A stretch of 64,000 nt of DNA, taken from assembly GCF_001570405.1 (NCBI RefSeq), contig NZ_BBYM01000012.1, positions 145,560-209,559 on the forward strand, in the 5' to 3' direction. Below the pieces are notes generated by a model that was not told the DNA's origin, ran no database searches, and saw nothing but the letters and a program-made list of their open reading frames with translations. Origin of the DNA: Microtetraspora niveoalba. GTDB lineage: Bacteria; Actinomycetota; Actinomycetes; Streptosporangiales; Streptosporangiaceae. Positions 10,824-54,157 of this stretch are shown here, one piece after another. Every line of letters starts with the position of its first letter. Positions within the stretch are counted from its first letter, which is position 1. A program made the position numbers and the translations under genes.

Positions 10824-10826
10824 AGG

Positions 10827-16671: not shown

Positions 16672-16699
16672 GGCGCGCGTCGCGGGCGGGCGGGTCAGA

Positions 16700-17842: not shown

Positions 17843-17928
17843 GCCGTCCTCCTCGCCCGCGACGGTCGCGGTGATCGGTTCCCGGAGTCCTCGTTCATGG
17901 GTCCATCCTGCCGCGACCGGACGGAGGG

Positions 17929-33488: not shown

Positions 33489-35360
33489 ATGAGCGCGACC
33501 TGGGGAGGCTGCGCCGGGTTCGGTTCCCACCCGGCTTTGCTCGACCGCGTGTGCGACGACTTCGCCGGGCAGTGGACCGTCCTGGACGGCGCCGACCCCG
33601 GACAGCCCCTGCCCGGTGAGGCGGTCGAGCGCGCCGTCATCGCGGCCAGGACCCCGGCCGACCTGCGGCGGCTCGTGCCGTTCGGCGCGCTGGTCCCGGA
33701 CGCGGCGCAGGTGTGCGTCGTCATCGCGGAGGCGCCGCCGTGGGCCGCCCAGCCGCTCCCCGTCGCGGGCCAGAGCGCTGCATGGCACCTCCTGGCGGAC
33801 ATGCGGATCCTGCGGCGCAGGCGGGGCTGGCGGATCGAGGCGACGTTCTCCGCGCCGGTGCCCGGGGGCGAGATCCTCGCCCACATCCTGTACGGCCTGC
33901 TCGGGGGGCGCCGGCACCTGGCCCAGCCGGTGGTCGGCCTGGCGGGCGAGGGCGCCTTCGGGTGGCGGCCCGGCGACCCGAACGTGACCCTGACCGGCGT
34001 GGACGGGCCGGTCGTGGCGCGGCGGGACGCCCCCGGCTGCGACCTGGTGCTCCGGGTCGTGGACCGTACGGACCGGCCGTGGCCGGACGGGCGCATCCCG
34101 GTCGTGGAGCGGGCGCCGCTGACGGCCGTCCCCGACGGTCCGGCGTACCCCGACCTGCTGCCGCCGGTGGACGAGACCGTGGTCAACCCCATCGGCTTCC
34201 GCCAGAACGCCAGGGGACCGGTGGCCACGCTGACCCGCAGGGCCGGCGGCTACTCGATCACCAGCGGGCTGGACGAGCTGGTCCGGCTCTCCCCGTCCGG
34301 GGAGCTGACGGACGTCGACGTGGCCCGGCTCCGCGACGCCGTCGGCGTCGCGGTCCGGGAACCGGACCCGTCCGGCCTGGTCCGGGCGCGGATCGTCACC
34401 GGGCTCGCCGCCGCCGGCATCCCCGTGCTCATGGACGGCGACGGGATCGGGGACCCGGCCCTCGGCGCGGAGTTGTCCGACGCGCTCGCGACCGTGGACG
34501 AGGACCAGCTCGCGTCCGAGCTGCGGCGCGAGGAGATCAGCGTACGGCTTCGCCGGGCCGCGCTCCGGACGCACGGCGCGATCCCGCGCTGGCGGAACAT
34601 CGCCGTCTCGGCCGGGCTGGCGCTGCCCCACGAGCCGCCCGTCTCCGTCCTGCTGTGCACGTGCCGCAAGGACATGGTCCCGTTCGCCCTGGAGCAGATG
34701 GAACGGCAGCGCGGTGTACGCGCCGAGGTCATCCTGGGCCTGCACGGGTTCTCCGCCAGGGAGGCGGGAGTCCAGGGGGCGATCGCCGACTCGTCGCTGC
34801 GGATCACGGTCGTCGAGGCGGCGGCCGGCGTGCCGTTCGGAGAACTGCTGAACCGCATGGCCGCCGTCGCGTCCGGGTCGTTCCTCGCCAGGGTGGACGA
34901 CGACGACTGGTACGGCCCCGACCACCTCGCCGACCTCCTGCTCGCCCAGCGGTACTCGGGGGCCGAGCTGGTGGGGGCGGCGGCCGAGTTCGTCTACCTG
35001 GAGCCGATCAACACCACCGTCCGCCGCCGGCTCGGCACCGAGCGGTTCACGTCCCTCGTCGCGGGCGCGACCATGCTCGTCACCCGCGAGATGTTCGAGA
35101 CCGTCGGCGGTTTCCGTCCGATCGGGACGACGGTGGATGGCCAGCTCCTGGAGTCCGTGGAGGCCGCCGGAGGGCGGATCTACCGCACTCACGGCCTCAA
35201 CTACGTCCTGCGCCGGCGCCACTCCCGGGCGCACACCTGGAGACACCCCGTCCAGGCGTTCCTCAAGTCGTACCAGGAGCAGTGGCGCGGGCTCCATTTC
35301 AACCATCTGATGGAAAGCGCTTCGACGCCCCATGTGGGCTACTGGAGGCAGGAACCGTGA
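33489..35360 (+). CDS. GT2 glycosyltransferase with large novel N-terminal domain
   Basis: A 623-residue protein. Residues up to about 380 form a region I cannot place, with no recognisable motif. From about residue 384 a GT2 (GT-A fold) domain begins: VSVLLCTCRKDMVPFALEQM, then the nucleotide-sugar/metal motif ARVDDDDWYGPDHLAD (about residue 470) and GATMLVTREMFETVGGFRP. The catalytic role should be sugar transfer in a surface-polymer pathway. The ATG at 33489 has GGAGG about 11 bases upstream. It overlaps the next glycosyltransferase by four bases (GTGA), so they are translationally coupled. Confidence 0.82.
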   Translation: MSATWGGCAGFGSHPALLDRVCDDFAGQWTVLDGADPGQPLPGEAVERAVIAARTPADLRRLVPFGALVPDAAQVCVVIAEAPPWAAQPLPVAGQSAAWHLLADMRILRRRRGWRIEATFSAPVPGGEILAHILYGLLGGRRHLAQPVVGLAGEGAFGWRPGDPNVTLTGVDGPVVARRDAPGCDLVLRVVDRTDRPWPDGRIPVVERAPLTAVPDGPAYPDLLPPVDETVVNPIGFRQNARGPVATLTRRAGGYSITSGLDELVRLSPSGELTDVDVARLRDAVGVAVREPDPSGLVRARIVTGLAAAGIPVLMDGDGIGDPALGAELSDALATVDEDQLASELRREEISVRLRRAALRTHGAIPRWRNIAVSAGLALPHEPPVSVLLCTCRKDMVPFALEQMERQRGVRAEVILGLHGFSAREAGVQGAIADSSLRITVVEAAAGVPFGELLNRMAAVASGSFLARVDDDDWYGPDHLADLLLAQRYSGAELVGAAAEFVYLEPINTTVRRRLGTERFTSLVAGATMLVTREMFETVGGFRPIGTTVDGQLLESVEAAGGRIYRTHGLNYVLRRRHSRAHTWRHPVQAFLKSYQEQWRGLHFNHLMESASTPHVGYWRQEP

Positions 35361-37027: not shown

Positions 37028-37131
37028 CCGCGCCGGTCCTGCTGCCGGTCCTGCTGCCGGTCACGACGGGACGGGAGCCGGTCCTGCGGCGGCTCGGCGC
37101 CGCCCTGCTCAGGAGGGCACGCCTCCAGTGA
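37024..37131 (+). CDS. Possible 35-residue coupled small protein
   Basis: A short frame that begins at ATG 37024, overlapping the previous stop as ATGA, and ends at 37131, 31 bases before the next glycosyltransferase. It encodes a Leu/Pro/Val-rich N-terminus and an Arg-rich C-terminus, an amphipathic or membrane-associated look. There is no recognisable family. The coupling geometry is the only positive sign; it may instead be non-coding leader for the next gene. Confidence 0.25.
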   Translation: MTAPVLLPVLLPVTTGREPVLRRLGAALLRRARLQ

Positions 37132-37162
37132 GCGACTCCCGACGACCTCGAAGGACCCGTCC

Positions 37163-40100
37163 GTGCCTCGCGTGAGCGTCATCATCCCCGTCCACGACGT
37201 GAAGCGGTACCTGGCGGCCTGCCTGGAGTCGGTCGCCGCGCAGACGTGGCACGACCTGGAGGCGGTCGTGGTGGACGACGGCTCCTCCGACGGCGGCGCC
37301 GCCGTCGCCCGCGGCCACGCCGAGCGCGACCCCCGGTTCCGGCTCGTACGGCAGGCCGGCGCCGGGCTCGGCGCGGCGCGCAACACCGGCCTGCGCCACG
37401 CCGGCGGCGAGTTCGTCTGCTTCCTGGACGGCGACGACCTGCTGCCGCTCCACGCCGTGGAGTACCTGCTGGCCGAGCTGCGCCGCACCGGATCCGACCT
37501 GGCCACCGGCGACGTCCGGCGGTTCAACCCGCGCGGGGCGCGGCCGTCCGCGATGCACCGCGAGATCTTCACCGGCCCGGCGCCCGCAACCCATGTCAGC
37601 GCCCGGCCCGCGCTCCTGAAGGACCGCCTGGTCACCAACAAGATGTGGCGTCGTTCGTTCTGGGACGCCCGCGGCCTCCGCTTCCCCGAAGGCGTCCTGT
37701 ACGAGGACATCTCGGTCGCGCTGACCGGCCACTTCCTGGCGCGCTCGGTGGACGTGCTGCCCGCGCCCGTCCATCTGTGGCGCGAGCGCGACGGAGCGGG
37801 GCCGTCGATCACGCAGGACAAGAACCATGTCCGGGGGCTGGAGGACCGCTTCGCCGCGGTGACCTCGGTGCGGCGCTTCCTCGCCGCGCACGGCCTGGAG
37901 GAGCACATCCCCGCCTGGGACCAGGTCGTGCTCGACCACGACATGGTGAACTTCCTCGACGTCGTGGACACCGCCTCGGACGCCTTCCGGGCCAGGTTCC
38001 TCGACCTCGCCGGGGCGTACCTCGACCGCGTGGCGCCGTCCGTCACGGAGGCGCTGCCCGCCGCGCGCCGGCTCAGGTGGCACCTGGTCGGCGAGCGGCG
38101 GCTCGACGACCTGATCGCGCTCATGGAGTGGGAGAGGCGGGCGCGGCCCGGCCGGCAGGTCGTCCGGCGACTGGGCCGCCACTACCTCGACACGCCGCTC
38201 CTGGCCAGGCGCGACATCCCCGCCGAGGTCTCGCGGCTGCGCGGCGAGCTGTCCCCGGTGACCCGCGTCGACCGGGTCGCCTGGGAGGAGGACAGGCTGG
38301 CCGTCGAGGGACGGGTGACGCTCCGGCACCTGCGCCCGACCAGGCGCTTCCATCAGCAGGTCTTCGCGACCCTCGTCCAGGAGGGGACCGGCCGCCGGGT
38401 CCGCGTGCCCGCCGCCGTCACCCGGACGGCGATCTCCGCCAGGCGCGGCAGGCCGCGCGGACGCCGCGACTGGGGAGGGTTCCGGCTCGTCGTCGACCCC
38501 CGGCGTCTGGCCGACGCGAGCGAGGGCGGCGCGCTGTGGCGGTTCGAGCTGCACGTGGTCCACCGCGGGCTCATGCGGCGCGGGCCGCTGGCCGACCCGG
38601 GCGCCTCCTTCGCCGACCAGGCGGGGGCCCGGAGCCTGGAACCGGCGCTGCCCGGCCACTACGTCACGCCGACGCTGACCGACGCGGGCGCGCTCGCCCT
38701 GCGGGTCGAGTGCGAGGCCGTCCGCGTCACCGGCCACGCCGTACGGGACGGGCGGCTGCACCTGCGCGGCGAGGTGGTGGGCGAGCTGGGGCCGCAGCCG
38801 GTGCTGCGGTTCACCCGGGAGCCCGGCGGCGTGCCGCTGGCCGTCCCCGTCAGCACCGACGGCCGGACCTTCGAGGTCGAGGTGGACCCGGCCGCGCTCC
38901 TGCCCGCGCGCCGGTTCGGCCTCGGCGGTGTCGAGGCCGGGCTGCTCGACCTGCCCGTACGGTGGCGGGTCACCGTCGACCGGGCGGGCGGGGCGGTGAC
39001 GCCGGTGACCGTGGCCGAGGACCTGTCGCCGCGGCGGTTCGGCCGCGGCGACCGGGAGATCGTCGTGCTGCGCGACCCCTCGGGCGAGCTCGTGCTCAGG
39101 GACCAGGCCGCCGCCGCGTACGCCGAGTACGCCGAGTGGCTGGCCGGCGGGGAGCTGCTGGTCGAGGGCGGGTTCGCCGAGCCGCAGGAGGGGCCGCGCG
39201 CCCTCGTGGTCGCCTCGCCCGACCGCTCCGTCGAACGGCTCGTCCCCCTGGACGGCACGGGCGCCCGGTTCGGCGGGCTGCTCGCGCCCGAGGCCGTGGA
39301 CACCCCGGCCGGCCCGCTTCCGCTGCCCAAGGGCCGGTACGGCCTCGCCGTACGGGCCGGGGGGCGGGATCTGCCGCTGGAGTTCGAGCCGGACTTCCCG
39401 CCGGTGCTGGAGACCGCGCGGCGGAGGTTCGAGCTGGCCGCCGACGACGCGGGACACGCCGTGCTCACGGTCGGCGGCGACCTGGCCGCGAGCGAGCGCG
39501 GCAGGAAGGCGCAGCGCGTGCTGCGGCTGGAGGCGTACCCGGCGATGCGGGAGCGCCCACTGCGCGCCGAGGTGTTCTTCAGCAGCCACGCGGGCAGGCG
39601 GTTCTCCGGCAGCCCGCGCGCCGTCTACGAGGAGCTGCGCGACCGGGGCGCCGACCTCGCCTTCCTGTGGAACGTCAGGGACGGGCAGGTCGCGCTGCCG
39701 CCCGGAGTCGAGCCGGTCCGCACGGCGGGCCGGGAGTACTACGAGGCGCTGGCCCGCTGCCGGTACGTCGTCGTGGACGACCACCTGCCCCCGTGGTTCG
39801 AGCCGCGCGCCGGGCAGACGGTGCTGCAGACCCGGCACGGCTGCGTTCCCACTCGTGTGGAGCGCGAGGCGGGCCGGTGGACCCACCTGCTCTCGCCGGG
39901 GCCGCGCTGCACGCCGCTGCTGCGGGAGGCTTTCGGCTTCCAGGGGGAGATCGTGGAGACCGGGCTGCCGCGCAACGACTTCCTGAGCGCCCCCGGCCGG
40001 GACGCCGTCGCGGCCGAGACCGCCCGCGCGCTCGGCCTGCCCGAGGGCAGGAAGGTCGTCCTGTACGTCCCGGCCCGGCGCGCCGCCCGGGAGAAGACGC

Positions 40101-40573
40101 GGCTCGACCTGGAACGGATGCGGGCGGCCCTGGGCGACGACCACGTCGTCCTCGTGCGCAGGCACCCCTCGCTGGCCGCGCAGGCCCCCGTGACGGCCCC
40201 GGGGGACTTCGTCCGCGACGTGTCCGTCCATCCCGACGTGCGCGAGCTCTACCCGCTCGCGGACGTCCTGGTCACCGACTACTCGTCGGCGATGTTCGAC
40301 TTCGCGCCGACCGGCCGCCCCATGCTGTTCTTCGCGTACGACGTGGACGAGTGGGCGGGCCGGTTCCCGTTCGACTACGCGGCCGAGGTGCCGGGGCCGC
40401 TGCTGGCCACCGCCGACGAGGTCGCCGAGGCGGTGGCGAACGCCGGCGAGGTCGCCGCCAAGTACACGGACGCGCGCCGCGAGTTCGTGGCGAAGTTCTG
40501 CCCGCTCGACGACGGCCAGGCCGCCCGCCGGGTGGTCGACCGCATCTTCGGCGCGGCGGCCGACCGCACATAG
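37163..40573 (+). CDS. GT2 / CDP-glycerol glycerophosphotransferase fusion, degenerate motif
   Basis: A 1136-residue two-domain protein. The N-terminal GT2 domain (about residues 1-230) has VSVIIPVHDVKRYLAACLES, VVVDDGSSDGG and CFLDGDDLLPLHAV. A long middle region of unknown fold follows, then a TagB/TagF-like domain (about residues 780-1130): FSGSPRAVYEELRDRG, VVDDHLPPWFEPR and VLVTDYSSAMFDFA. These transfer polyol- or sugar-phosphate units. The usual QTWHGTPLK stretch here reads QTRHGCVPT: the histidine is kept but neighbours changed, so activity may differ from its paralogues. GTG start at 37163 with a GAAGGA site. Confidence 0.87.
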   Translation: MPRVSVIIPVHDVKRYLAACLESVAAQTWHDLEAVVVDDGSSDGGAAVARGHAERDPRFRLVRQAGAGLGAARNTGLRHAGGEFVCFLDGDDLLPLHAVEYLLAELRRTGSDLATGDVRRFNPRGARPSAMHREIFTGPAPATHVSARPALLKDRLVTNKMWRRSFWDARGLRFPEGVLYEDISVALTGHFLARSVDVLPAPVHLWRERDGAGPSITQDKNHVRGLEDRFAAVTSVRRFLAAHGLEEHIPAWDQVVLDHDMVNFLDVVDTASDAFRARFLDLAGAYLDRVAPSVTEALPAARRLRWHLVGERRLDDLIALMEWERRARPGRQVVRRLGRHYLDTPLLARRDIPAEVSRLRGELSPVTRVDRVAWEEDRLAVEGRVTLRHLRPTRRFHQQVFATLVQEGTGRRVRVPAAVTRTAISARRGRPRGRRDWGGFRLVVDPRRLADASEGGALWRFELHVVHRGLMRRGPLADPGASFADQAGARSLEPALPGHYVTPTLTDAGALALRVECEAVRVTGHAVRDGRLHLRGEVVGELGPQPVLRFTREPGGVPLAVPVSTDGRTFEVEVDPAALLPARRFGLGGVEAGLLDLPVRWRVTVDRAGGAVTPVTVAEDLSPRRFGRGDREIVVLRDPSGELVLRDQAAAAYAEYAEWLAGGELLVEGGFAEPQEGPRALVVASPDRSVERLVPLDGTGARFGGLLAPEAVDTPAGPLPLPKGRYGLAVRAGGRDLPLEFEPDFPPVLETARRRFELAADDAGHAVLTVGGDLAASERGRKAQRVLRLEAYPAMRERPLRAEVFFSSHAGRRFSGSPRAVYEELRDRGADLAFLWNVRDGQVALPPGVEPVRTAGREYYEALARCRYVVVDDHLPPWFEPRAGQTVLQTRHGCVPTRVEREAGRWTHLLSPGPRCTPLLREAFGFQGEIVETGLPRNDFLSAPGRDAVAAETARALGLPEGRKVVLYVPARRAAREKTRLDLERMRAALGDDHVVLVRRHPSLAAQAPVTAPGDFVRDVSVHPDVRELYPLADVLVTDYSSAMFDFAPTGRPMLFFAYDVDEWAGRFPFDYAAEVPGPLLATADEVAEAVANAGEVAAKYTDARREFVAKFCPLDDGQAARRVVDRIFGAAADRT

Positions 40574-40783
40574 CGAGGCGCGGCGCCGGGCGGACACGGC
40601 GTGGACATGGCGTGGACATGGCGAGGCGTGCGGCCGGGCGCTGGCGAGGATGGCGAGGCGCGGCGGCCGGGTGCAGCCGGGTGGTTTCCGGACGCGGGCC
40701 CCGGGTCAAGGATGGCCCAAGCCACGGTAAGGCGCACGACGTCCGAGCGGCCCGGGACCGCTGATCGCGGGCATCCTGGCCGC

Positions 40784-43700
40784 GTGCGTACGGTTCCCAG
40801 GCTCTCGGTGATCGTTCCGTTCCACGACGTGGAGGAGCACGTCGGGGAGTGCCTCGACTCGCTGCGCGCGCAGACTCTCACGGACGTCGAGTACATCCTC
40901 GTGGACGACGGCTCCACCGACGGCGGGCCGTCCGTCGCCGCCGCGTTCGCCGCCGCCGACCCCCGGTTCACGGTCATCCGCGGACCGGGCAGGGGGCCGG
41001 GCCCGGCCCGCGACGCCGGGATCGCCCGCGCCACCGGGGCCTATCTCGCGTTCGCGGACGGCGACGACATGGTCCCCCCGGACGCCTACCGGACCATGGT
41101 GGAGACGCTCGACGCGACCGGGTCCGACCTGGCCTGCGGCGCGGTGACCCGGGTGCGGCGCGACGGCACGGTCAAGTCGCGTTCCGTGACGCCCGGGTTC
41201 GGCCGGACCGTCCTGCGTACGCACGTCCGGGCCAACCGCGACCTGCTCCAGGACCGGCACGTCACCAACAAGGTGTTCCGCCGCTCCTTCTGGGACGCGC
41301 ACGGCCTCACGTTCCCCGAGGGGCCGTACGAGGACGCGCCGGTCGCGATCCCGGCCCATGTCCTGTCCACCGCGACCGACGTGCTCGGCGACGCCGTCTA
41401 CCTCTGGCGGGCCAGGCCCGGGTCCGCGCGCGACCGACGCGGCGATCCCGAACGCGTCGCCCGGTCGCTCGCGTCGGCCGCCGCGGTCTCCGCGTTCCTG
41501 GCCGCGCACGCACGCAAGCTGCGGCGGCGGCACGACCAGCACATCGCCGAGACCGAGTTCCCGCTCCTCCTCGACATGCTCGCCACGGCGCGGGCCGGGA
41601 TCGCGCGCCGGCTGTTCGACAGCGCCCGCGCGTCCCTCGACGCGCTCCACCCCGCCGCGGCCGTCGGGTTGCCCGCGCTCCAGCGGCTCCAGATCCATCT
41701 CGTCCGCGAGGGCATGCCCAAGGAGCTGGCCGCCGTCCAGCGGTTCGCCCGCACCGAGATCGACGACCACGGCCTGGTACGGCACGGCACACGCTGGTAC
41801 TTCGACTACCCCTTCCTCGGCGATCCCCGCGTCCCCGAGGAGGTCTACGAGGCCGGGCCCGAACTGCGGGCCCACGCCGTGGTCGACGACGTACGGCCGG
41901 GCGGAGGGGGGCTGCGCGTCACCGGACACGCCTACCTCTCCCGGGTGGACAGCAAGCTCTGCGACGTCGAGGTCTGGCTCGCGTCCGGCGACCGGCGGAT
42001 CCCGCTGAAGGCGCGCCGGGCGGAACGGCCCGACGTGACCGCGGACTCCCGCCAGTCCGCCGTGTCACACGACAGGTCGGGGTTCGTCGCCGACGTCGAT
42101 CCGGTCCGGCTGCCCGAGGGGACGTGGACGCTGCACGCCCGGGTCTCCGCCCGCGGCGTCGAGCGCGCCGAGCGGGCCAGCGGCCACCGGGACGCGGGAG
42201 AGCGTGCCTTCCGGCTGGGCGACCTCCACGTGTCCCTCACCGCGCACGACGGCCTCGTCCTCACCGCGGGCGCCGCGACCGCCGAGGCGCCCGGCGCCCC
42301 GGTTTCCGCGCCCGTGGTGACCGGTGTCCGCTGGACGGACGCGCACGAGCTGGTCCTCGGCGGCGAGGGCGGGAGCCGTACGGACCGGGTCGCCCTCCAG
42401 CTCGGGGACGCGGGGGAGCGGCACGAGTGGCCCGTCGAATGGTCGGGCTCGCAATTCACCGCGACCGTCGGCGTCACCCCGTGCGGCCTGCCGCCGCGCA
42501 GCGGGCGATGGCGCGTGCTCCTCGGTGACCGGCCGCTCACGCTCGCCCCCGAACTGCTCGCCGCCCCGCCGGAGCCGCACACGACCTCCGTGCACCGGAT
42601 CTCCTTCCTCCCCGGCCCGGGCGGGGAGCTGCGGCTGCTGGTCAGACCGGCGCTGCGCCCGGACGAGCGCGGCAGGTACGCCCTGCGCCGGCTGCGCGGC
42701 ACGGCGCGCCACCATCGCACCCGGATCAGGGACGCGGCGTTGTTCGACAGCTACGGCGGCGGCCAGTACTCCTGCAACCCCCGCGCGATCTGCGAGGAGT
42801 TGCGGCGGCGCGACCTCGGCCTGGACCTCGTCTGGGTCACCAGGGACGGCCAGTTCACCGTCCCCGCCGGGATCCGCACCGTGCTGTACGGCTCCCGCGA
42901 ACACGAGGAGGCACTCGGGACCAGCCGGTTCGTGGTCGCGAACCGGCGCACCCAGCCGTCCTGGTACGCCAAGCGGCCGGACCAGACGTTCGTGCAGACC
43001 TGGCACGGCACGCCGCTCAAGCGCCTGGGCCGCGACGTCAGGGGCAAGCCGCTGGCCAACCGCGACCTCTACGAGGGACTCGACCGCTACGCCCCGATGT
43101 GGGATGTGCTCGTGTCGCCGAACCCGTTCTCCACCCCCATCCTGTGCCGGGCGTTCGGCTACGAAGGGGAGGTGCTGGAGTCGGGCTACCCGCGCAACGA
43201 CGTGCTTCTGCGCCCGGGCCATGCCGAGCGGACGCGCCGGGCGCTCGGCATCCCCGACGGCCTGCGCGTCGTCCTCTACGCCCCCACCTGGCGCGACGAC
43301 GAACACGCCCGCCGGGGGCGCGCGGCACTGGAACTGGACGCGGCCCGGGTCGCCGGGGCGCTGGGCGACGACGTCGTCCTGCTGGTCCGGACCCACTACC
43401 TGATGACCGGGCGGGTGGCGACGCCGATCCCGTGGGCCGGGGGAGACGCGACTCCTGGGGTCCCCGGTCGCGCGCCGGAAGTGCTCGGCGGACGCGCCTT
43501 CGATGTCTCCAGCTTTCCCGACATGGCGGACCTGCTGGCCGTCACGGACGTGCTCGTCACCGACTACTCGTCGGCGATGTTCGACTTCGCCTGCACGGCG
43601 CGGCCGATGGTCTTCTTCACCTACGACCTGGAGCGGTACCGCGACCAGGTCCGGGGGTTCTACTTCGACTTCGAGAAGGAGGCCCCGGGACCGGTCGTCC

Positions 43701-43852: not shown

Positions 43853-44010
43853 ACCCCCGCCCCGTGCCCGGGGGCTCCGGGTCGGGTCCGCCCGCGGGTC
43901 TCGGACCCGGGCCCGCCCGCGGGCGCCGGCCCGCGTACCATCCCCGCCGACCGTGCCCTGCGGAGCCCGGGGCCCTCCCGATATGTGGCCCGCCCGTCCA
44001 AGGAACCGAG

Positions 44011-45501: not shown

Positions 45502-45504
45502 CGG

Positions 45505-47058
45505 TCAGGACAGCTCGAACGGGCTCGGCGTCGGATAGTACGCCTCAAGGAAGCGCATCAGCAGCGCGTCCTGCTCCTCGGTGGTCGGCGCGGTGTCGTT
45601 GAGGCAGAAGGCGTCGTGCTTGCGCTTGGCGAGCATGCGCCGCAGCTTGGCCGGGGTCTCCTCCAGCGCCAGGTCGACGTACGTGTACTCGAGCACGCCG
45701 GGCACCGCGCGGCCGGTCAGATAGCCGTAGTAGTGGGCGAGCGACGACACGACCGAGATGTCGCTGGACTTGCGGAAGGCGCCGCGCGCCGTCGCCGCCA
45801 CGTCCTCGGCGAACCGCTCCTCGATCTCGTACATCAGCGAGCGGCGCAGGGCGTAGGGGACGTGCTTCATCTTCTGGGTGAGCGTCCGGCCGGACAGCGT
45901 CTCCAGGATCCGCCGGTTGTTCATCCCGGCCGCGTGGACCGGCGACTCCTCGTCCGCGGGGGAGCCGAACGGCACGTGCACGATGCTCGGGAAGAAGTGC
46001 GGCATGCCGTTCCCCTCGAAGAACGTGTGCGCCGGCAGCGGCCGCCCGAGGAAGAAGTCGTCGTTCAGGTAGAGGAACTGCTCCGACAGCCCGTCGATGT
46101 GGTGGAGCTGCGTCTCGATCGCGTGCGAGTTGAACACCGGCAGCACGGACGGGTCGGTGAAGATCTCCTTGTGGTCCACGACCGTGACGAGCGGGTCGGA
46201 GGCGTCCAGCCAGGAGGGCCGCTGCCCGTCCGTCACCACCCACACCCGGTTCACCCACGGCGCGTACGTCAGGAGCGAGCGCAGCGAGTAGCGCAGCTCG
46301 TCCCTGCTGACGAAACGGGCGTCGGTCGTGGCCAGCTCGCTGAACCCGCCGGTCAGCGCGAGATCCCTGCGGGCCCGCCAGGCCGGGTCGGACCCGTCCA
46401 CCCAGGTGTAGACCGCGTCGATCGGGAAGTCGATGTCGTCGATCAGGCGGCGGGTGAACTCCGGCCGCGTCGGATAGGTTCCGATGCTCCGCGACGGCGA
46501 GACGAGGTTGTTGAACAGCTCCTCGCCGCCCTCGACGGTCTGCCCGCGCAGGGGCACGATGTCGCACGACCGGTTGGGGCGCGGAGCCACGAGCGTGTCT
46601 CCCTCGGGCGTCCAGAACTCCAGGTCGCAGCCGTAGTCCGCGCCGAGCGTGAGGGTGCGGGACGGGCTGGTGAAGTAGAGCGCGACCCGCAGGACGCGGG
46701 CGCCGTCCAGGCCTCCGGCGCGGCGGAGCGGGCGCATCTCGCCCACCTCCGTCGACCGCTCGCCCCGCCTGCCGTACGGCTGCCGCCCGGCGAGCAGCGG
46801 CCGGTCGCAGCGGGCGAGGGCCGACAGCGCCTCCGACCGGTGCGTCGTGGCGACGGCCACGGCCGGCGGTCTGCCTCGCGGCGGGCGGACGCAGAAGTAC
46901 GGCACTCCGGCCTCCGCGAGCACCGAGCACACCAGCCCGAAGGTCTCGCGCTGGGCCTGTAACGGGCTCGCGTCCTCCCTGATCAGTGCCGCGCCCGGTG
47001 TGGTCCCCCCGGCGGCCAGGCGCTTTCGCAGCCGTTGATACAACGTTCCGACCTGCAT
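45505..47058 (-). CDS. Stealth-family sugar phosphotransferase
   Basis: A 517-residue Stealth protein. Conserved regions in order are CR1 (IDAVYTWVDGSDPAW, about residue 222), CR2 (SRDELRYSLRSLL and NRVWVVTDGQRPSWLD, about 252-280), CR3 (NSHAIETQLHHIDGLSEQFL and YLNDDFFLGRPL, about 315-340) and CR4 (LEYTYVDLALEETPAKL, about 455). Stealth enzymes (like GlcNAc-1-phosphotransferase and capsule transferases) move hexose-1-phosphate units and build phosphodiester-linked glycans. The N-terminal 200 residues are variable. ATG 47058 has GGGGGAG upstream. It is the only gene on the minus strand in the middle of the locus and is divergent from a CDP-alcohol phosphotransferase. Confidence 0.93.
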   Translation of the reverse strand: MQVGTLYQRLRKRLAAGGTTPGAALIREDASPLQAQRETFGLVCSVLAEAGVPYFCVRPPRGRPPAVAVATTHRSEALSALARCDRPLLAGRQPYGRRGERSTEVGEMRPLRRAGGLDGARVLRVALYFTSPSRTLTLGADYGCDLEFWTPEGDTLVAPRPNRSCDIVPLRGQTVEGGEELFNNLVSPSRSIGTYPTRPEFTRRLIDDIDFPIDAVYTWVDGSDPAWRARRDLALTGGFSELATTDARFVSRDELRYSLRSLLTYAPWVNRVWVVTDGQRPSWLDASDPLVTVVDHKEIFTDPSVLPVFNSHAIETQLHHIDGLSEQFLYLNDDFFLGRPLPAHTFFEGNGMPHFFPSIVHVPFGSPADEESPVHAAGMNNRRILETLSGRTLTQKMKHVPYALRRSLMYEIEERFAEDVAATARGAFRKSSDISVVSSLAHYYGYLTGRAVPGVLEYTYVDLALEETPAKLRRMLAKRKHDAFCLNDTAPTTEEQDALLMRFLEAYYPTPSPFELS

Positions 47059-47210
47059 GATCTCCCCCCGGCACAGGACTGTAACGGACTGTAACGGATG
47101 ACAGTGATGCCTGCGGGACCCTTTGACGAGGTCGGGGGGAGAGTCAAGAAGTGGCAACGAGTTGACCTCCCTAGCACCGATTCGCATGTGACCGGCTACT
47201 GACCGTAGTC

Positions 47211-48119
47211 ATGCTTGCCCCCATGGGACGCTTCACGCTGGACGATGTGCTGGCCGTGCGGAAGCGCAGGGACTCGTGGTGGACCGTTTTCCTGGTCGAT
47301 CCGATCGCCTGCCGGCTCGCGCTGCTGGTGGCCAACCACACCTCGATCACACCGAACGGGCTGACCCGGCTCTCCATGGTCGTCGGCCTCGGTTCAGCCG
47401 TGTGCTTCGCCCAGGAGCTGCTGGTCGCGGGGGCGGCCCTGTTCTTCGTGAGCTTCACCGTCGACTGCATGGACGGGAAGATCGCGCGGCTCAAGGGCAC
47501 CGGCACGCCGTTCGGGCTGTGGCTCGACTACGTCGGCGACCGCGTCCGGGTGCTCTGCTGCGCGTTCGGCATCGCCTCCGCGCTGTACGCGCGCACCGGC
47601 GACCTCGTCTACATCGTCGCGGGGGCGGGCGTCGTCATCCTCGACCTGTTCCGCTACATCAACGGCCCGCAGCTCAAACGGGTCAGGGACACCACGCGGG
47701 CGGCCGCCAGGGAGAACGCCGGAGCCGAGTGCGTGTTCATGGACGAGCTGCTCGGCGCGGCCCCGGGCAGCAGCACCGAGGACGTGCGGCGCGACTTCGA
47801 GCGGGTCGCCGACGAGGACGGCCGCGCGCTGGTCGACCTGCAGCGGGGCTTCCGCGCGCAGTTCCCCTGGTACGACCGCGTCCGGATGTTCCTCGTGGCG
47901 CACCGCGTCCGCTCACACCTGATCAGCGGCATCGAGTTCCACGCCGCCGTCTTCGTGATCGCGCCGATCCTCGGCGCCGTGGCCTGGCTCTGGACCTCCG
48001 CCGTGATGGGCGCGTTGCTGCTGGCGTTCGAGTCCGTCCTCGTCTACCGCGCCTGGCTGGGGACCAGAGAGGTGGCCCGCGCCGTGTCGGTGAATGAAAG
48101 GGAGAAGATTCTTGTCTGA
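47211..48119 (+). CDS. CDP-alcohol phosphatidyltransferase family protein
   Basis: A 302-residue integral membrane enzyme. The signature DG-x2-AR-x8-G-x3-D-x3-D is complete in DCMDGKIARLKGTGTP followed by FGLWLDYVGD (about residues 84-110), so the metal-dependent CDP-alcohol phosphotransfer should work. A cytoplasmic helical insertion with acidic and Arg-rich stretches (about residues 150-235) and two C-terminal membrane segments extend the usual fold. Start choice is uncertain: ATG 47211 or ATG 47223; neither has a clear ribosome-binding site. It overlaps the sulfotransferase by eight bases. In this locus it may make the lipid or polyol-phosphate acceptor of the polymer. Confidence 0.87.
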   Translation: MLAPMGRFTLDDVLAVRKRRDSWWTVFLVDPIACRLALLVANHTSITPNGLTRLSMVVGLGSAVCFAQELLVAGAALFFVSFTVDCMDGKIARLKGTGTPFGLWLDYVGDRVRVLCCAFGIASALYARTGDLVYIVAGAGVVILDLFRYINGPQLKRVRDTTRAAARENAGAECVFMDELLGAAPGSSTEDVRRDFERVADEDGRALVDLQRGFRAQFPWYDRVRMFLVAHRVRSHLISGIEFHAAVFVIAPILGAVAWLWTSAVMGALLLAFESVLVYRAWLGTREVARAVSVNEREKILV

Positions 48120-49158
48120 CCGGCCGATCTTCGTCGTGGGGTGCCCGAGGTCGGGCACCACCCTCCTCCAGCTCATGTTGCACGCCCACCCCCGGCTGGC
48201 CGTGCCGCCGGAGACCCGGATCATCGTCCACGCCTACAACAAGCGCCACAAGTACGGCGACATGCGGCAGGCCGCGAACCGGCGCAGGCTCGCGGAGTGG
48301 ATCGCCGACGGGAGCCGCACGCAGTTCGGCGACCTCGGCGTCGACCGCGACACGTACGTCACGCGGGCCGTGGAGGGGCCGGGCAGCCTCGGCTCGGTCG
48401 TCGGCCTCGTCTACCAGATGTTCGGCGAGCGGTTCGGCAAGCCGCGCTGGGGGGACAAGCGGCCGCCGTACATCCGCCATCTCGACGAGATGCTGGCCAT
48501 GTTCCCCGACGCCCAGATCATCCACCTGATCAGGGACGGCCGGGACTGCGTGGCCTCGCTCAAGGAGATGCCGTGGTTCGGCGAGGACGTCTACCACGCG
48601 GCGCACCGCTGGGCTGAGGCGATCGACCTCGGCCGGCGGGCGATGCGCAAGTTCTCGCCCGACAGCTACCACGAGCTGCGGTACGAGGACCTGACCGCCG
48701 ACCCGGAGCACGAGCTGACCCGGCTGTGCGCGTTCATCGGCGAGGAGTACCACCCCGCGATGCGGGAGCCGTACCGGGTCGCGGACGTCGTGCCGGAGCG
48801 CAAGACCTGGCACGTGAACACCCGCTCGGAGGTGACGACGCAGCGGTCGGGCACCTGGGCCGAGCGGCTGGAGCCGTGGGAGATCGGGCTGTGCGAGGCG
48901 GTGCTGGGGGAGCGCCTGGTCGACCAGGGCTACTCGCTCAGCGGGGCGCCGCGGCCGGCCCGCGAGCACCTGGCGGCCTACCGCAAGGTGGAGCAGCGAT
49001 TCCGCAGGAAGCGCTGGCGCAAGAGCGTCACCGAGCAGATCGACCGGTTCCGCGAGCCCGGCCCGGTGGCCGCGCTGCTGACCGAGGGACAGCGCGCCCT
49101 CGCGGGGCTCCCCGCGCGGCCCGACCACCGGCCCGCGCACCGCGTCGCCGCACGCTGA
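48112..49158 (+). CDS. Sulfotransferase, copy 1
   Basis: A 348-residue PAPS-dependent sulfotransferase. The 5'-phosphosulfate-binding loop GCPRSGTTLLQLML lies at residues 10-23, and the 3'-phosphate-binding region LIRDGRDCVASLKEM at about residue 139. The start is taken as TTG 48112, because AGGGAGAAG precedes it and because its paralogue begins with the same DRPIFVVGCPRSG; ATG 48094 would add six residues. It overlaps the CDP-alcohol transferase by eight bases. The two copies share most of their length (for example RFGKPRWGDKRP), showing recent tandem duplication. The expected substrate is a surface glycan hydroxyl, not proven. Confidence 0.9.
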   Translation: MSDRPIFVVGCPRSGTTLLQLMLHAHPRLAVPPETRIIVHAYNKRHKYGDMRQAANRRRLAEWIADGSRTQFGDLGVDRDTYVTRAVEGPGSLGSVVGLVYQMFGERFGKPRWGDKRPPYIRHLDEMLAMFPDAQIIHLIRDGRDCVASLKEMPWFGEDVYHAAHRWAEAIDLGRRAMRKFSPDSYHELRYEDLTADPEHELTRLCAFIGEEYHPAMREPYRVADVVPERKTWHVNTRSEVTTQRSGTWAERLEPWEIGLCEAVLGERLVDQGYSLSGAPRPAREHLAAYRKVEQRFRRKRWRKSVTEQIDRFREPGPVAALLTEGQRALAGLPARPDHRPAHRVAAR

Positions 49159-49216
49159 GTCACCGGCCGTCTGAGCCGTCGCACGCTGAGTTTCCAACAC
49201 AGGGGGATTGATTTCC

Positions 49217-50257
49217 ATGCAGTCGGACAGGCCGATCTTCGTCGTCGGCTGCCCGCGCTCGGGCACGACGATGTTGCAGCTCATGCTGCACTCCCACCCG
49301 CGCATCGCGGTTCCGCCGGAGACCCGGTTCCTGGTCCCGGCCTACTTCTCGCGCAAGTCGTACGGGGACATGCGGCAGGCGGAGAACCGCCGCAGGCTCG
49401 CCGAGTGGATCGCGAACGGCAGGAACACGAAGTTCCGCGAGCTGGGCCTGGACAAGGCCGAGTTCGTGCAGGCCGCGATGATGGGACCGGGCAGCTTCGG
49501 ATCCGTCATCGGGATGGTCTTCAAGAGCTACGCCGAGCGGTTCGGCAAGCCGCGCTGGGGCGACAAGCGGCCCAGCTACTTCAAGCACGTGGACATGCTC
49601 ATGCGCATGTTCCCCGACGCCCAGTTCATCCACCTGATCAGGGACGGCCGCGACTGCGTCGCCTCCCTCAAGGAGATGCCCTGGTACACGCTGGACAGCT
49701 TCCACGCGGTGTCCAACTGGGCGGAGGCCATCGACTTCGGCCGCCGCAACTCCCGCAGGCTCCCCGCGGACACCTTCTACCAGCTCCGCTACGAGGACCT
49801 GACGTCCGACCCGGAGAACGAGCTCAGGAAGTTGTGCGCGTTCATCGGCGAGGACTACGACCCGGCGATGTGCGAGCCGAGGCACGTCGCCCGCGTGGCG
49901 GTGCCCGCGCACAAGGTCTGGCACCGCAACACGCACGGCGACGTCACCACCGCCCGCGCCGGGAGCTGGTCCAGCCGCCTGGAGCCGTGGGAGATCGCGC
50001 TCTGCGAGGAGGTGCTCGGCGAGCGGCTCTCGGCCTGCGGGTACGAGCTGACCGGCGCGCCCAAGGCGGAGCGCCAGCACATCTCCGCGTACAAGGCCGC
50101 GGCGGGCAAGCGCAGGGCCGCGCGGTGGCGCAAGCGCAACCGCGACCTGCTGGTCCGCCTGCGCGAGCCCGGCCCGCTCCCGGCGCTGCTGACCGACGGC
50201 CAGCGCACCCTGGCCGGCGTCCCCGCGCAGCGTCCTCGTGAGCTCGTCAACGGCTGA
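49217..50257 (+). CDS. Sulfotransferase, copy 2
   Basis: A 346-residue paralogue of the preceding gene, with the same PAPS motifs (GCPRSGTTMLQLML and LIRDGRDCVASLKEM). The ATG at 49217 is nine bases from AGGGGGA; a TTG at 49208 is less likely. The copies differ mainly in the middle substrate-facing region (TYVTRAVEGPGSLGS versus EFVQAAMMGPGSFGS), so they may sulfate different positions. It overlaps the convergent GT4 gene by 11 bases at their 3' ends. Confidence 0.9.
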   Translation: MQSDRPIFVVGCPRSGTTMLQLMLHSHPRIAVPPETRFLVPAYFSRKSYGDMRQAENRRRLAEWIANGRNTKFRELGLDKAEFVQAAMMGPGSFGSVIGMVFKSYAERFGKPRWGDKRPSYFKHVDMLMRMFPDAQFIHLIRDGRDCVASLKEMPWYTLDSFHAVSNWAEAIDFGRRNSRRLPADTFYQLRYEDLTSDPENELRKLCAFIGEDYDPAMCEPRHVARVAVPAHKVWHRNTHGDVTTARAGSWSSRLEPWEIALCEEVLGERLSACGYELTGAPKAERQHISAYKAAAGKRRAARWRKRNRDLLVRLREPGPLPALLTDGQRTLAGVPAQRPRELVNG

Positions 50258-51335
50258 CGTGCGCCAGCAGCGCCGTCCAGCGGTCGAGCACGCGTTCGGG
50301 CCGGAACCGCTCCGCGTGCAGGCGGGCGGCGGCGCCCAGCCGCCGCCGCTCGTCCGCGGAGCCCGTCAGCCGTGACAGCGCGGCGGCCAGGCCCGGGACG
50401 TCCCCCGGGGGGACGAGCAGGCCGGTACGCTCCGGCAGCACCAGCGTCCGGACCCCTCCGGACACGTCGAACGCCGCGCACGGCACCCCGTACGACGCCG
50501 CCTCCCCGATGACCAGCGGCAGCCCCTCGTGCTCGCTCGACAGCGCGACCGCCGACGCCTTGCGGTACTCCGACGGCATCCCCGCCGCCGGTATCCGTCC
50601 CCGGAAGACCACCCGGCCGGCCACCCCCTCCGCCGCCGCGTGCAGCCGGAGCCGCCCCTCCTCCGGCCCGTCCCCGATCAGGTGCAGCTCCCAGCCCGCG
50701 GCCCCTCCCGTACGGCGGGCCAGGGCGAACGCGGAGATCAGCCGGTCGAAGCGCTTGACCCCGGCCAGCCTCCCCACGCCGAGGATCCGGCGGCCCTCGA
50801 CCGGCGACACCGCCGAGGGCCAGCCCGGGAGCGGGTTCGGCAGGTGGCAGGCGTTCGGCAGCAGCGCCTCCTCGGAGAACCGCCGCGCGTCGTCGGCGCT
50901 GAGGAAGACGGCCTGGTCGAGCGCTCCGTAGTGCGCCCGTACGGAGCGGAAGTGCCACGAGCCGAGGGCGTGGTCGAACGATCCGTGGTACTGGCCGATG
51001 CCGAGGTGGCGGCCCGGGACGAGCAGGTCCCGCATCGCGGTCACCACGGCGGGCGAGGTCATCACCACGTAGCAGGGGCCGATCCCGGCGAGCAGCCGGG
51101 TGATCGCCCGCCGGCCCGACCGGCCGTGCCACCGCTTCGCCGGCGCCGCGCTCAGGGCGGGGTGGCGGGTGTAGGCGGGGCGCTCGACGTAGCGGACGGG
51201 GTCCGCGGACGCGTGCAACCCGGCCACGTGGACCTCGTATCCGCGCTCGGCGAGCCCCTGGGCGACGGTGTGCGTGACGCGCTGGACGCCGCCCAGGGTG
51301 TCGGCGTCCAGGCACACGAACAGGACGGTCCGCAT
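50247..51335 (-). CDS. GT4-type glycosyltransferase
   Basis: A 362-residue GT-B-fold glycosyltransferase. The N-terminal acceptor domain starts VLFVCLDADTLGGVQRVTHT, and the C-terminal nucleotide-sugar domain has RRILGVGRLAGVKRFDRLI, LIGDGPEEGRLR, and the EX7E-type SSEHEGLPLVIGEAASYGVP. The ATG overlaps the upstream stop by one base (TGATG), so it is coupled to the large GT2-TagF fusion. It is convergent with sulfotransferase copy 2. Confidence 0.92.
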   Translation of the reverse strand: MRTVLFVCLDADTLGGVQRVTHTVAQGLAERGYEVHVAGLHASADPVRYVERPAYTRHPALSAAPAKRWHGRSGRRAITRLLAGIGPCYVVMTSPAVVTAMRDLLVPGRHLGIGQYHGSFDHALGSWHFRSVRAHYGALDQAVFLSADDARRFSEEALLPNACHLPNPLPGWPSAVSPVEGRRILGVGRLAGVKRFDRLISAFALARRTGGAAGWELHLIGDGPEEGRLRLHAAAEGVAGRVVFRGRIPAAGMPSEYRKASAVALSSEHEGLPLVIGEAASYGVPCAAFDVSGGVRTLVLPERTGLLVPPGDVPGLAAALSRLTGSADERRRLGAAARLHAERFRPERVLDRWTALLAHVSR

Positions 51336-54157
51336 CACACCGGCCGCTCGGGGAGCGGCAGCTCGCGGACCCGGCGCCCGCGCCCGGCGAACGCGGGCAC
51401 GACGACGCCCGCGACGAGGGACGCCAGGGACCGGGCGAGCGAGCGGCGTGGCGACGCGGCCTCGGCGAAGAACGCGTCCACCACCCGGGCCGCCGCCTCT
51501 CCGGTCTCCCTGGCGCACCACATCTGGCGGAAGGCCGCGTACCGCTCCTCGTACGGCGTCCAGGCGTGGCCGTCGCGCGGGAGGTCGCGGAGCACGCGGA
51601 CGAGCTCCTCGGTCGTGGTGACGCACGGGCCGGGTGCGATCTCGGTCAGGTCGTGGTGGAGGCCGCGCTCGACCCGGCGGTACTCCTCCCAGTCGTCCGT
51701 GTACAGCACGATCGGCTTGCCGGTGACCGCGAAGTCGCACATGACCGACGAATAGTCGGTGAGCAGCGCGTCCGCGGCGAGGATGAGGTCGTTGACCTCG
51801 GGATACCCGCCCGCGGGCCGGACGAAGTGGCGCAGCCGCTCGGGCACCGCGAACCGCTCCACCGGATGGGTGCGCAGGATCAGCGCCCATTCCGGGTGCA
51901 GCTCGGCCGCCAGCCGGTCGAGATCCACCCGCACGGACCGGCCGGAGTGCTTCGCGCGGTCCCGGTAGGTCGGCGCGTACAGCAGGACGCGGACGCCCTC
52001 GCCGATCTCCAGGAGGTCCCTGGCGCGGGCGGCCGCCGCCGCGTCCCCGTGTACGAGCACGTCGCAGCGCGGGGAGCCGAAGCGCAGCAGCGGCCCGGCG
52101 TACTCGTTGGCCGGCACGAAGATCCGCTCGAACTCGGCGCTCGGCGCGACCAGCGCGTCCCACCGGGCGACGTTCGCCCGCCACTGCTCGCGAGGGCCGG
52201 GGAAGTCCCCGCGCATGTCCGGCGAGTCGAGCCCGACCGACTTGGACCCCTGGCCGTGCCACGTCTGCAGATAGCGGGTGCCGGGCGGCTTGGGGAAGCC
52301 GAGCGGCATGCCGTGGCTGTCCACCCACCATCCGGCCCGCGCCATCGTCCACAGGTAACGCCAGCTCATCCTGCGGACCTTGGCGACGTCGCCGGGGAAG
52401 TTCCGCCGGTGCGCGGACACCGACCAGACCGCCCGGAGCGGCAACCCCCTGCGGCGGATCTCCTCGTGGATGTACCGGGGGTGCCCGGTGTAGCCCCTGC
52501 CGCAGTCGGCCTCGAACAACACCAGGTCGCGCCGCCGGGGGACCACCCTGACCAGGCCCCGGTAGACCCGGATCTTGAGATCCCGGTACCGCGGATGCCG
52601 GATGATCCGCCTGCGCAGGGCGAGCAACGGCCGCACCACGCGCCCGGTCGCGCCGCGCCGCTCCCACACCGTCCGCAGCACGGCGCTGTCGCCCTCGGGG
52701 CGTACGGTCACCCGGTGCGCGGGCGTGGACGCGGTGAGCGGCGGCAGCGAGGGTTCGGCGAGGAGGCGGTCGCTCGTGACGTGCCCGTCCGCGCGGGTGA
52801 AGGCGATCCGCGGCTCGTGGAACCCCGCCCACCAGAAGGCGCGGGGGTTCGCCCCGGACAGATCCGCCTCCGCCCGCACGGTGTAGCCGCCCTCCGGGTG
52901 CCGTTGGGGCGCGAGCCGTACGCGCTGGGCGCCCACGACGAGATGGGCCGCCGTGGGCGGGTGGCGGTCGAGCACCCCGAACGGGTCGTACGTGCGGACC
53001 GTGAGGGAGAGGACGGTCCCGGACAGGGACGCCTCGGTGACCTCGTGCCTGATCCGGGACGCCGAGAACGGCAGCTCGGCCAGCCGCATGTCCGTGATGT
53101 CGTACGCGTCGCCGGGGACGGCGCCCCAGTAGGTGCGGCCGTCGCGGACGACGGCCTCGCGCGGACCGGCCCTGGCCCCGGTGAGCGACCGGGCCGCCAC
53201 CCGCAGGTCCGCCACCCGGTCGGCGAGGATGAGCCCCGCGCACACCCGCACCATCGGCTCCGCCCGGTCGAGCACGCCCGGTTCGAGCGCCGCCAGGTAC
53301 GGCCGGACCACGGCGGCGAACTCCTTGGCCCACACCGCGTCGAAGCGCGGCAGCGCGTTGAGGTAGACCCGCAGGTCCTGGACGACGAACCGGCGCTGCC
53401 GCTCGTGTACCAGCTCGGCCAGGCCGCCGCGCCTGAGCACACGGTCGGCCGCCTCGGCGGCGACCACGCGGTGGCGGGCGTTCTCGACCGAGCCGAGGCG
53501 GAGCGAGATGGACGGATCGGCGCCCGCCGACCGGTGCCACAGGTAGACCGGCCACGGCACGACCGCGAACCGCCGCGCCGCGCGGTACACGGCGGCGGTG
53601 AAGATGTGGTCCTCGTAGAGCAGGTCCTCGCGGAACCGGATGCCGTGCTCGCGCAGGAAGCCGAGGCGGTAGAGCTTGTTCGTGGAGAACCCGTCGAGGA
53701 ACATCGCGGGGTCGGCGGCGATCCCGGGCACGACACGTCGCGGCCGGAAGAGCGAGGGGTAGTAGGGGGCCGTCCTGCCGCTCCACTCGTACAGGCGCGA
53801 GATCTGGCCGGTCACGAAGTCGGCGCCGGTCCGCTCGATCTCCGTCAGCAGGCTCTTGCAGGCGTGGCGCGGCAGCTCGTCGTCGCTGTCCAGGAACATG
53901 ACGTACGGCGCGCGGGCGGCGTCCATCCCCGCGTTGCGCGGCGCTCCGCAGCCGCCGCTGTTGGACCGGCGGCGGATGTAGCGGACGCGCGGCATGTCGC
54001 GTACGACCCGCGCGGTGTCGTCGGTGCTCCCGTCGTCCACCACGACGATCTCCAGGTTGCGCAGGGACTGGCGCAGGAGCGAGCCGACCGCCCTCGGAAG
54101 CCGGGCGGCGTCGTTGTAGGTGATCACCACAACGGTCACGTCCGGTCGCACCGCCAT
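51335..54157 (-). CDS. GT2 / CDP-glycerol glycerophosphotransferase fusion, third paralogue
   Basis: A 940-residue fusion protein. The GT2 domain (about residues 1-230) shows TVVVITYNDAARLPRAVGSL, VVVDDGSTDDT and MFLDSDDELPRHA; the middle is of unknown fold; the TagB/TagF-like domain (about residues 560-900) has YLQTWHGQGSKSVG (about residue 636), VLLYAPTYRDRA and LLTDYSSVMCDFAVTGKP. The key histidine and DYSS region are present. A basic, hydrophobic tail may touch the membrane. The ATG at 54157 has a G-rich site upstream. It is coupled to the GT4 enzyme. With the two plus-strand fusions it suggests several distinct phosphotransfer steps in one polymer. Confidence 0.88.
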   Translation of the reverse strand: MAVRPDVTVVVITYNDAARLPRAVGSLLRQSLRNLEIVVVDDGSTDDTARVVRDMPRVRYIRRRSNSGGCGAPRNAGMDAARAPYVMFLDSDDELPRHACKSLLTEIERTGADFVTGQISRLYEWSGRTAPYYPSLFRPRRVVPGIAADPAMFLDGFSTNKLYRLGFLREHGIRFREDLLYEDHIFTAAVYRAARRFAVVPWPVYLWHRSAGADPSISLRLGSVENARHRVVAAEAADRVLRRGGLAELVHERQRRFVVQDLRVYLNALPRFDAVWAKEFAAVVRPYLAALEPGVLDRAEPMVRVCAGLILADRVADLRVAARSLTGARAGPREAVVRDGRTYWGAVPGDAYDITDMRLAELPFSASRIRHEVTEASLSGTVLSLTVRTYDPFGVLDRHPPTAAHLVVGAQRVRLAPQRHPEGGYTVRAEADLSGANPRAFWWAGFHEPRIAFTRADGHVTSDRLLAEPSLPPLTASTPAHRVTVRPEGDSAVLRTVWERRGATGRVVRPLLALRRRIIRHPRYRDLKIRVYRGLVRVVPRRRDLVLFEADCGRGYTGHPRYIHEEIRRRGLPLRAVWSVSAHRRNFPGDVAKVRRMSWRYLWTMARAGWWVDSHGMPLGFPKPPGTRYLQTWHGQGSKSVGLDSPDMRGDFPGPREQWRANVARWDALVAPSAEFERIFVPANEYAGPLLRFGSPRCDVLVHGDAAAAARARDLLEIGEGVRVLLYAPTYRDRAKHSGRSVRVDLDRLAAELHPEWALILRTHPVERFAVPERLRHFVRPAGGYPEVNDLILAADALLTDYSSVMCDFAVTGKPIVLYTDDWEEYRRVERGLHHDLTEIAPGPCVTTTEELVRVLRDLPRDGHAWTPYEERYAAFRQMWCARETGEAAARVVDAFFAEAASPRRSLARSLASLVAGVVVPAFAGRGRRVRELPLPERPV

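Follow-up and report, generated by a model that had tools for sequence, protein, structure and literature searches.

What could a bacterium build with a locus in which enzymes for phosphodiester-linked polymers stand next to two sulfotransferases? The question is raised by a window of 64,000 nucleotides (the whole stretch of DNA analyzed here) from Microtetraspora niveoalba, in which such genes lie between guaA and coxG, a site common to many Streptosporangiaceae. An earlier note on this DNA had proposed a sulfated, teichoic-acid-like polymer of the wall or capsule. Read most simply, the genes would yield an anionic surface polymer that is sulfated in part. We hold with modest confidence that the locus builds a phosphodiester-containing surface polymer, and that predicted PAPS-dependent sulfotransferases would sulfate it in the cytoplasm before export.

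Gene content of the locus

Positions 33489 and 54157 are both gene boundaries, and a Pfam scan finds between them every family that the earlier note had named (Table 1). That gene set stands, with the qualification that GT2a is a likely and not a certain member of the GT2 family, judging by its Pfam score; among relatives, G001-G003 (Microtetraspora) keep GT2a, as do 10 of the 20 loci compared.

Table 1. Genes of the locus and of its two flanks, by position in the window
Gene	Position	Strand	Pfam match and remarks
guaA	30607..32169	+	Pfam; same flank in relatives; flanking anchor gene outside the pathway
Polysaccharide deacetylase	32430..33191	-	PF01522 E 2e-42, scanned as 32430-33224; guaA edge of the site
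GT2a, GT2-like glycosyltransferase (likely)	33489..35360	+	PF00535 E 8.5e-4, 19.7 bits vs. cut-off 23.3
GT2b glycosyltransferase	35357..37027	+	PF00535 E 6.8e-16
TagF1, GT2-TagF fusion	37163..40573	+	PF00535 + PF04464 (Glyphos_transf) E 9e-77
TagF2, GT2-TagF fusion	40784..43852	+	PF00535 + PF04464 E 2e-101; start approximate, open frame from 40601
PMT_2 (GT39-type) membrane glycosyltransferase	44011..45501	+	PF13231 E 6e-12
Stealth-type sugar-phosphate transferase	45505..47187	-	PF17101, PF11380, PF17102, PF17103
CDPOH, CDP-alcohol phosphotransferase	47211..48119	+	PF01066 (CDP-OH_P_transf) E 7e-12
ST1, predicted sulfotransferase	48094..49158	+	PF13469 (Sulfotransfer_3) E 2e-44; overlaps CDPOH end
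ST2, predicted sulfotransferase	49208..50257	+	PF13469 E 2e-46
GT4 glycosyltransferase	50247..51335	-	PF13692 E 2e-27; start overlaps TagF3 stop
TagF3, GT2-TagF fusion	51335..54157	-	PF00535 + PF04464 E 1e-79
coxG	54334..55362	-	PF06240; flanking anchor gene outside the pathway

The polyol-phosphate transferase domain PF04464 is present in all three fusions (E 9e-77 to 2e-101), and TagF3 matches the TagF of S. epidermidis (3l7i) at E 2e-59. The Stealth protein has CR1 to CR4, all above the Pfam cut-off, and its catalytic part aligns with CpsY (8j2n, E 5e-71). The PMT_2 protein weakly resembles a mycobacterial mannosyltransferase model, at a score far under the cut-off of that model. By Pfam, nonulosonate synthesis genes (NeuB, CMP-nonulosonate synthetase) are absent from the locus in the window, and none of its proteins belongs to the Wzx flippase or Wzy polymerase families. 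It is uncertain whether the deacetylase is a member of the pathway; a deacetylase-like gene lies at the guaA edge in many relatives too. Three genomes of the same genus (G001, G002, G003) have an extra gene of ~500-518 aa, partly TagF1-like, between GT2b and TagF1, which the window does not have (37028-37162). The counterparts of ST2 in Microtetraspora fusca, glauca, malaysiensis and strain NBRC 16547 are 92-95% identical to it.

Conservation in relatives

The arrangement is more than chance, because it is conserved in relatives. A search of 200 genomes of the family with TagF3 finds matches in 70 of them at E 1e-120, and one with ST2 finds matches in 125 at E 1e-80. When neighbors are counted using the listed sulfotransferase matches, which go down to about E 1e-125 and leave weaker ones out, there is a sulfotransferase within 10 kb of 65 of the 66 TagF3 orthologs (at least 57% identity, own genome included). 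In the sole exception (G093), TagF3 is at a contig end and the sulfotransferase is on another contig. None of four weak TagF3 matches (35-45%) is near a listed sulfotransferase. Among the matches listed, 28 of the 65 loci have one sulfotransferase copy, 34 have two and 3 have three. The listed sulfotransferase matches also include 34 genomes with no TagF3 match, several of which hold CDPOH and a sulfotransferase with TagF1- or TagF2-type genes.

We also scanned species genomes with an alignment of the sulfotransferase and obtained 329 relatives; the analysis covers the best 80 of these, which come from 11 named genera and one more strain. These loci were found through the sulfotransferase, and their figures tell what accompanies it, not how often it accompanies CDPOH. 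In all 80 (best 80 of 329), CDPOH is immediately upstream of the sulfotransferase and on the same strand, with a gap of -23 to 215 bases (median 27). Within ~10 kb of the sulfotransferase, 76 of these 80 loci have a PF04464-type domain, and three of the four that do not are short stretches (6-13 kb). The fourth, L135 (Planotetraspora), is a full stretch with CDPOH and a sulfotransferase and no TagF domain within ~10 kb, which counts against our reading. Over the same distance, and again among the best 80 of 329, we find GT4 in 61, TagF3 in 60, Stealth in 36, NeuB in 30, GT39 in 21 and a polysialyltransferase in 8.

The earlier note had made its proposal depend on TagF and sulfotransferase genes being conserved together in relatives, and they are, both around the TagF3 orthologs (65/66, listed matches) and around the sulfotransferases (76/80, best 80 of 329); this co-conservation rules out that the two are chance neighbors. 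The region is broadly syntenic, so shared descent accounts for some of the co-conservation, a point against our reading. The same note had seen three phosphate chemistries meeting with sulfation. They do co-occur here, but not as a fixed set, as the frequencies of Stealth, GT39 and TagF3 indicate (36/80, 21/80 and 60/80). The invariant unit is CDPOH with the sulfotransferase, not the joining of three phosphate chemistries.

Glycan genes that swap around a constant part

The constant part is CDPOH and the sulfotransferase, usually with GT4 and TagF3, and the glycan genes around it swap. Among the best 80 of 329 loci, those of Microtetraspora, Planotetraspora, Sphaerimonospora and Microbispora have Stealth (22/22) and GT39 (21/22), those of Herbidospora have Stealth and a polysialyltransferase (7/7), those of Nonomuraea have NeuB (27/32) and never Stealth (0/32), and those of Streptosporangium have NeuB in 2/6. 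Stealth and NeuB are nearly exclusive: one of these 80 loci has both, 35 have Stealth only, 29 NeuB only and 15 neither, and we rejected the three chemistries as a fixed set. The Fisher p-value is about 1e-9, which is indicative only, given that the loci are related.

As an example of the NeuB cassette, Pfam finds NeuB+SAF, a cytidylyltransferase, Polysacc_synt_2, DegT and GNAT in G006; by similarity, NeuB, cytidylyltransferase, Polysacc_synt_2 and DegT occur together in 25 of the best 80 of 329 loci. Three NeuB-type cassette genes (L050:4921-5898, 10736-12403, 12349-13215) have relatives in other loci and no Pfam match at E 0.001. That the swapping part holds nonulosonate genes, polysialyltransferase and Stealth points to a surface glycan. 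It also means that the description of the product as teichoic-acid-like fits some members, while others, with NeuB in 30 of the best 80 of 329, may be teichulosonic-like.

The guaA-coxG site

In 9 of 14 locus-bearing relatives the locus has guaA on one side and coxG on the other; in the remaining ones one flank is beyond the stretch or unrecognized. A coxG gene is within ~10 kb in 64 of the best 80 of 329 loci. What is at this site when the locus is not? We searched for guaA in 20 genomes in which no locus with a TagF3 ortholog had been seen, and read downstream of it in 18 (all except G005 and G035). A coxG-like gene is found downstream in 11 of the 18 and is not found in the stretch in the other 7.

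Seven of these 11 guaA-coxG stretches have none of the locus genes (in G026, coxG comes directly after guaA). Three (G143, G196, G092) have CDPOH with neither sulfotransferase nor TagF; two of these also have a gene that weakly resembles GT4. The last one (G154) has two GT2-TagF genes with neither sulfotransferase nor CDPOH, which counts against our reading. A sulfotransferase is at the site in 0/11 of these stretches, which come from genomes picked as lacking the locus; G143, G196, G092 and G154 each have a sulfotransferase match elsewhere. Also counting against our reading is G028, which has CDPOH, TagF1, GT4 and TagF3 at the site and no sulfotransferase match at E 1e-20. From such varied contents it follows that wall-polymer genes recur at this site, and that CDPOH can occur there without a sulfotransferase. 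At the edge of the site, an Acyl_transf_3 gene adjoins guaA in 10 of 20 loci (e.g., L111:10726-11946); it is not seen in the window.

In a quick tree, the sulfotransferases of the locus form one group (support 97), separate from 14 outside sulfotransferases taken from 12 genomes; the tree was built without the sulfotransferase matches of G040, G051, G053 and G054, the G052 region and the second region of G019. ST1 falls in a group of 18 first copies (support 100) from Microtetraspora, Acrocarpospora, Herbidospora and NEAU-GS5, and the Streptosporangium pair falls outside it. The retention of two copies suggests that they have two jobs.

Active-site motifs and enzyme models

Both sulfotransferases of the locus belong to PF13469 and have the motifs that bind the 5′-phosphosulfate and the 3′-phosphate; ST1 reads GCPRSGTT, PPETR and RDGRDCVAS. 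The glutamate of PPETR aligns with that of GEETR in TPST, and we take it to be the catalytic residue. Genes in the relatives were called from codon usage with a home-made finder that often starts them late, and the sulfotransferase motifs were read on frames extended upstream. In the best 80 of 329 loci, all 103 sulfotransferases keep PRSGT and RDGRDC, and all 103 keep the glutamate (97 PPETR, 4 APETR, 1 APETK and 1 PPESR). With their motifs intact, ST1 and ST2 are predicted to be PAPS-dependent sulfotransferases. They are probably cytoplasmic, because the fold is of the soluble type and PAPS is made in the cytoplasm.

CDPOH has the full motif DxxDGxxAR(8x)GxxxDxxxD, which is kept in 80/80 loci (best 80 of 329). 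A relative of CDPOH at L043:18991-19935 has lost motif aspartates, although the neighboring sulfotransferase, GT4 and TagF3 are kept, and this counts against our reading. In an alignment with S. epidermidis TagF, TagF2 (which reads WHGTPLK) and TagF3 retain the WHG motif and the second histidine, which are presumably the catalytic ones. TagF1 has RHG in place of WHG and is ~20 residues shorter behind the motif.

The AlphaFold2 model of ST2 (pLDDT 86) finds its nearest solved structures among tyrosylprotein (TPST1/2) and polyketide (CurM, olefin-synthase) sulfotransferases. That these are not carbohydrate sulfotransferases counts against our reading, and they do not name the acceptor. For the CDPOH model (pLDDT 91) the nearest folds are AF2299 and PIPS. 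Its substrate cannot be read from the fold, as AF2299, PIPS and DIPPS are equally good matches (TM against the query 0.32-0.47), nor its function from relatives elsewhere in the genomes, most of which are single among varied genes, several of them near an IMPDH-like gene.

Functions encoded elsewhere in the genome

The earlier note had found no exporter, LCP ligase or CDP-polyol synthesis gene, and a Pfam scan of 36 window proteins (50 called, less 14 small ones) finds none, either in the locus or around it. These families are present elsewhere in the assembly (8.47 Mb in 98 contigs), which has 8 LCP matches and 20 matches to ABC2_membrane, 19 of them above the cut-off, together with four matches to PF01467 (CTP_transf_like), at the family level only. 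On contig C8 (L090, G000:C8:149501-169500, 6947-17857) there are LCP, GT2, a TagF-like gene, an IspD+SDR (TarIJ-like) fusion, Fe-ADH, a nucleotidyltransferase and two CDP-alcohol enzymes. This is a second wall-polymer-type region, adjoining ATP synthase genes. One strong APS kinase match is on contig C33 (G000:C33:82438-94438), with three other sulfotransferases 6-12 kb away, a separate sulfation region.

The donor and ligase families are outside the locus, and the pathway is therefore split, as had been proposed: LCP, the TarIJ-like fusion and APS kinase are all encoded elsewhere in the genome. The C8 genes may serve this locus. We considered a TagF gene on contig C20 as another polymer locus and rejected it, as it adjoins helicase-nuclease genes and is near siderophore-type (IucA/IucC) genes.

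What the locus may build

In the pathway that we propose, sugars would be linked to one another by the GT2, GT4 and Stealth enzymes, in the case of Stealth via sugar-1-phosphate. The GT2-TagF fusions, supplied with CDP-polyol by the TarIJ-like fusion on contig C8, would contribute glycosyl and polyol-phosphate units. CDPOH, a membrane enzyme, would make a phosphodiester bond in a conserved portion of the molecule, either an anchor or a linkage unit. Sulfate would be put on this portion, or on the chain as it grows, by ST1 and ST2, with PAPS that the APS kinase outside the locus would provide. The polymer would reach the wall through a general ABC exporter and an LCP ligase, and there receive further sugars from the GT39-type enzyme.

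Which part would be sulfated? A sulfotransferase acting on the repeat unit would be expected to differ, or to be lost, where the repeat differs. Here the sulfotransferase is constant while the repeat genes change, and CDPOH stays with it, from which we infer a conserved acceptor, perhaps the anchor made by CDPOH. This leads to a reading that we put forward only tentatively, in which CDPOH and the sulfotransferase are a portable anchor module: a phosphodiester-linked anchor or linkage unit, sulfated by the sulfotransferase, would be the base for unrelated chains, whether glycosyl-polyol-phosphate, sugar-1-phosphate, polysialate-like or nonulosonate. A sulfated linkage unit, if true, accounts for a pair that is fixed in 80/80 loci (best 80 of 329) while the chain-building genes vary. 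In mammalian glycans, sulfation has been proposed to signal that a chain should stop growing, in the part of that work available (PMC8587909), and by analogy chain capping may be a further possible role.

Alternatively, the sulfotransferases could act on protein (tyrosine) or on a small molecule, and be next to polymer genes through inherited order only. The identity of their closest solved relatives (TPST1/2, CurM and olefin-synthase sulfotransferases) speaks for it, as do the other sulfotransferases of the genome and the fact that, in two genomes examined, homologous sulfotransferases outside the locus have unrelated genes as neighbors. We nevertheless regard it as unlikely, given that CDPOH is adjacent in 80/80 (best 80 of 329) despite the swapping of other neighbors, and given 0/11 sulfotransferases in the guaA-coxG stretches of genomes picked as lacking the locus.

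Rather unlikely, too, is that CDPOH and the sulfotransferase serve a distinct product, a sulfated polar lipid, while TagF, Stealth and NeuB make a separate, unsulfated wall polymer at the same site. A TagF-type domain is close by in 76 of the best 80 of 329 sulfotransferase loci, and TagF3 orthologs are nearly always with a sulfotransferase (65/66, listed matches), which argues against two independent products. In favor of such a lipid, CDPOH resembles phosphatidylinositol-phosphate synthases, L135 has the pair with no TagF domain nearby, and CDPOH is at the site without TagF or sulfotransferase in G143, G196 and G092, each with a sulfotransferase match elsewhere. Finally, inactive or vestigial sulfotransferases next to genes for a usual polymer of the teichoic or teichulosonic type, free of sulfate, which could be supposed from the Streptomyces wall polymers described without sulfate (PMC11481543, as far as its available text goes) and from the TagF locus without sulfotransferase in G028, are very improbable against cofactor and catalytic motifs kept in 103/103 (best 80 of 329 loci) and an ST1 duplicate kept in Microtetraspora, Acrocarpospora, Herbidospora and NEAU-GS5.

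Relation to known systems

Wall-polymer loci as such are known; new here is one with a CDP-alcohol enzyme and a sulfotransferase as its fixed core. The wall teichoic acid and teichuronic-acid-like (utr) loci of Streptomyces (PMC13274773) likewise have a fixed chromosomal place, with a small core of genes and wide differences among species, and their pathway has TagF and TarIJ, as here. They are tracked by the ribosomal proteins L21/L27, whereas the locus here is tracked by guaA and coxG, and the available part of that description mentions no sulfotransferase and has no CDPOH-sulfotransferase core. The closest case with sulfotransferases is perhaps wps-1 of Actinoplanes missouriensis (PMC13390465), a polysaccharide cluster with two predicted sulfotransferases; in both systems sulfation is a prediction. 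In contrast to our locus, wps-1 has a Wzx/Wzy/Wzz pathway and sulfotransferases of two other families, and no TagF-type or CDP-alcohol enzyme is found in the accessible portion of its description.

Streptomyces coelicolor has teichulosonic acid and poly(diglycosyl 1-phosphate) (PMC11481543, PMC13011467), chemistries that the NeuB and Stealth cassettes may suggest here; for those polymers neither sulfate nor sulfotransferase is described in the portions of these sources available, whereas this locus has sulfotransferases. TagF, TarL and the TagF-like capsule polymerases (such as Cps3D) transfer glycerol phosphate or ribitol phosphate with a TagF domain that stands alone or is joined to further transferase domains, while here three fusions with an N-terminal GT2 are in one locus beside sulfotransferases. 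CpsY, AF2299, PIPS, TPST1/2 and CurM are relatives of single enzymes, and none is seen to come from a joint pathway of this kind.

In the literature searched, where subscription journals are thinly covered, we found no TagF-type locus with sulfotransferases in actinobacteria, nor, among the papers listed, the phrase "sulfated teichoic acid". Sulfated capsules are reported in marine Gram-negatives (PMC11641403, PMC11766843), and in the parts of the sources available the sulfated surface polymers we found are from Gram-negative marine bacteria and cyanobacteria, plus one actinobacterial prediction (PMC13390465).

If our reading holds, a link between sulfate assimilation and wall building would follow, with CDPOH and the sulfotransferase as a fixed module seemingly paired with different chains. 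It would also offer a genetic handle on the walls of the Streptosporangiaceae, a family that includes antibiotic producers, and the 11 named genera among the best 80 of 329 relatives would provide many culturable strains for tests. Even a genome of 4.2 Mb (G065) still holds a locus (L117) with CDPOH, sulfotransferase, Stealth and two TagF-type genes.
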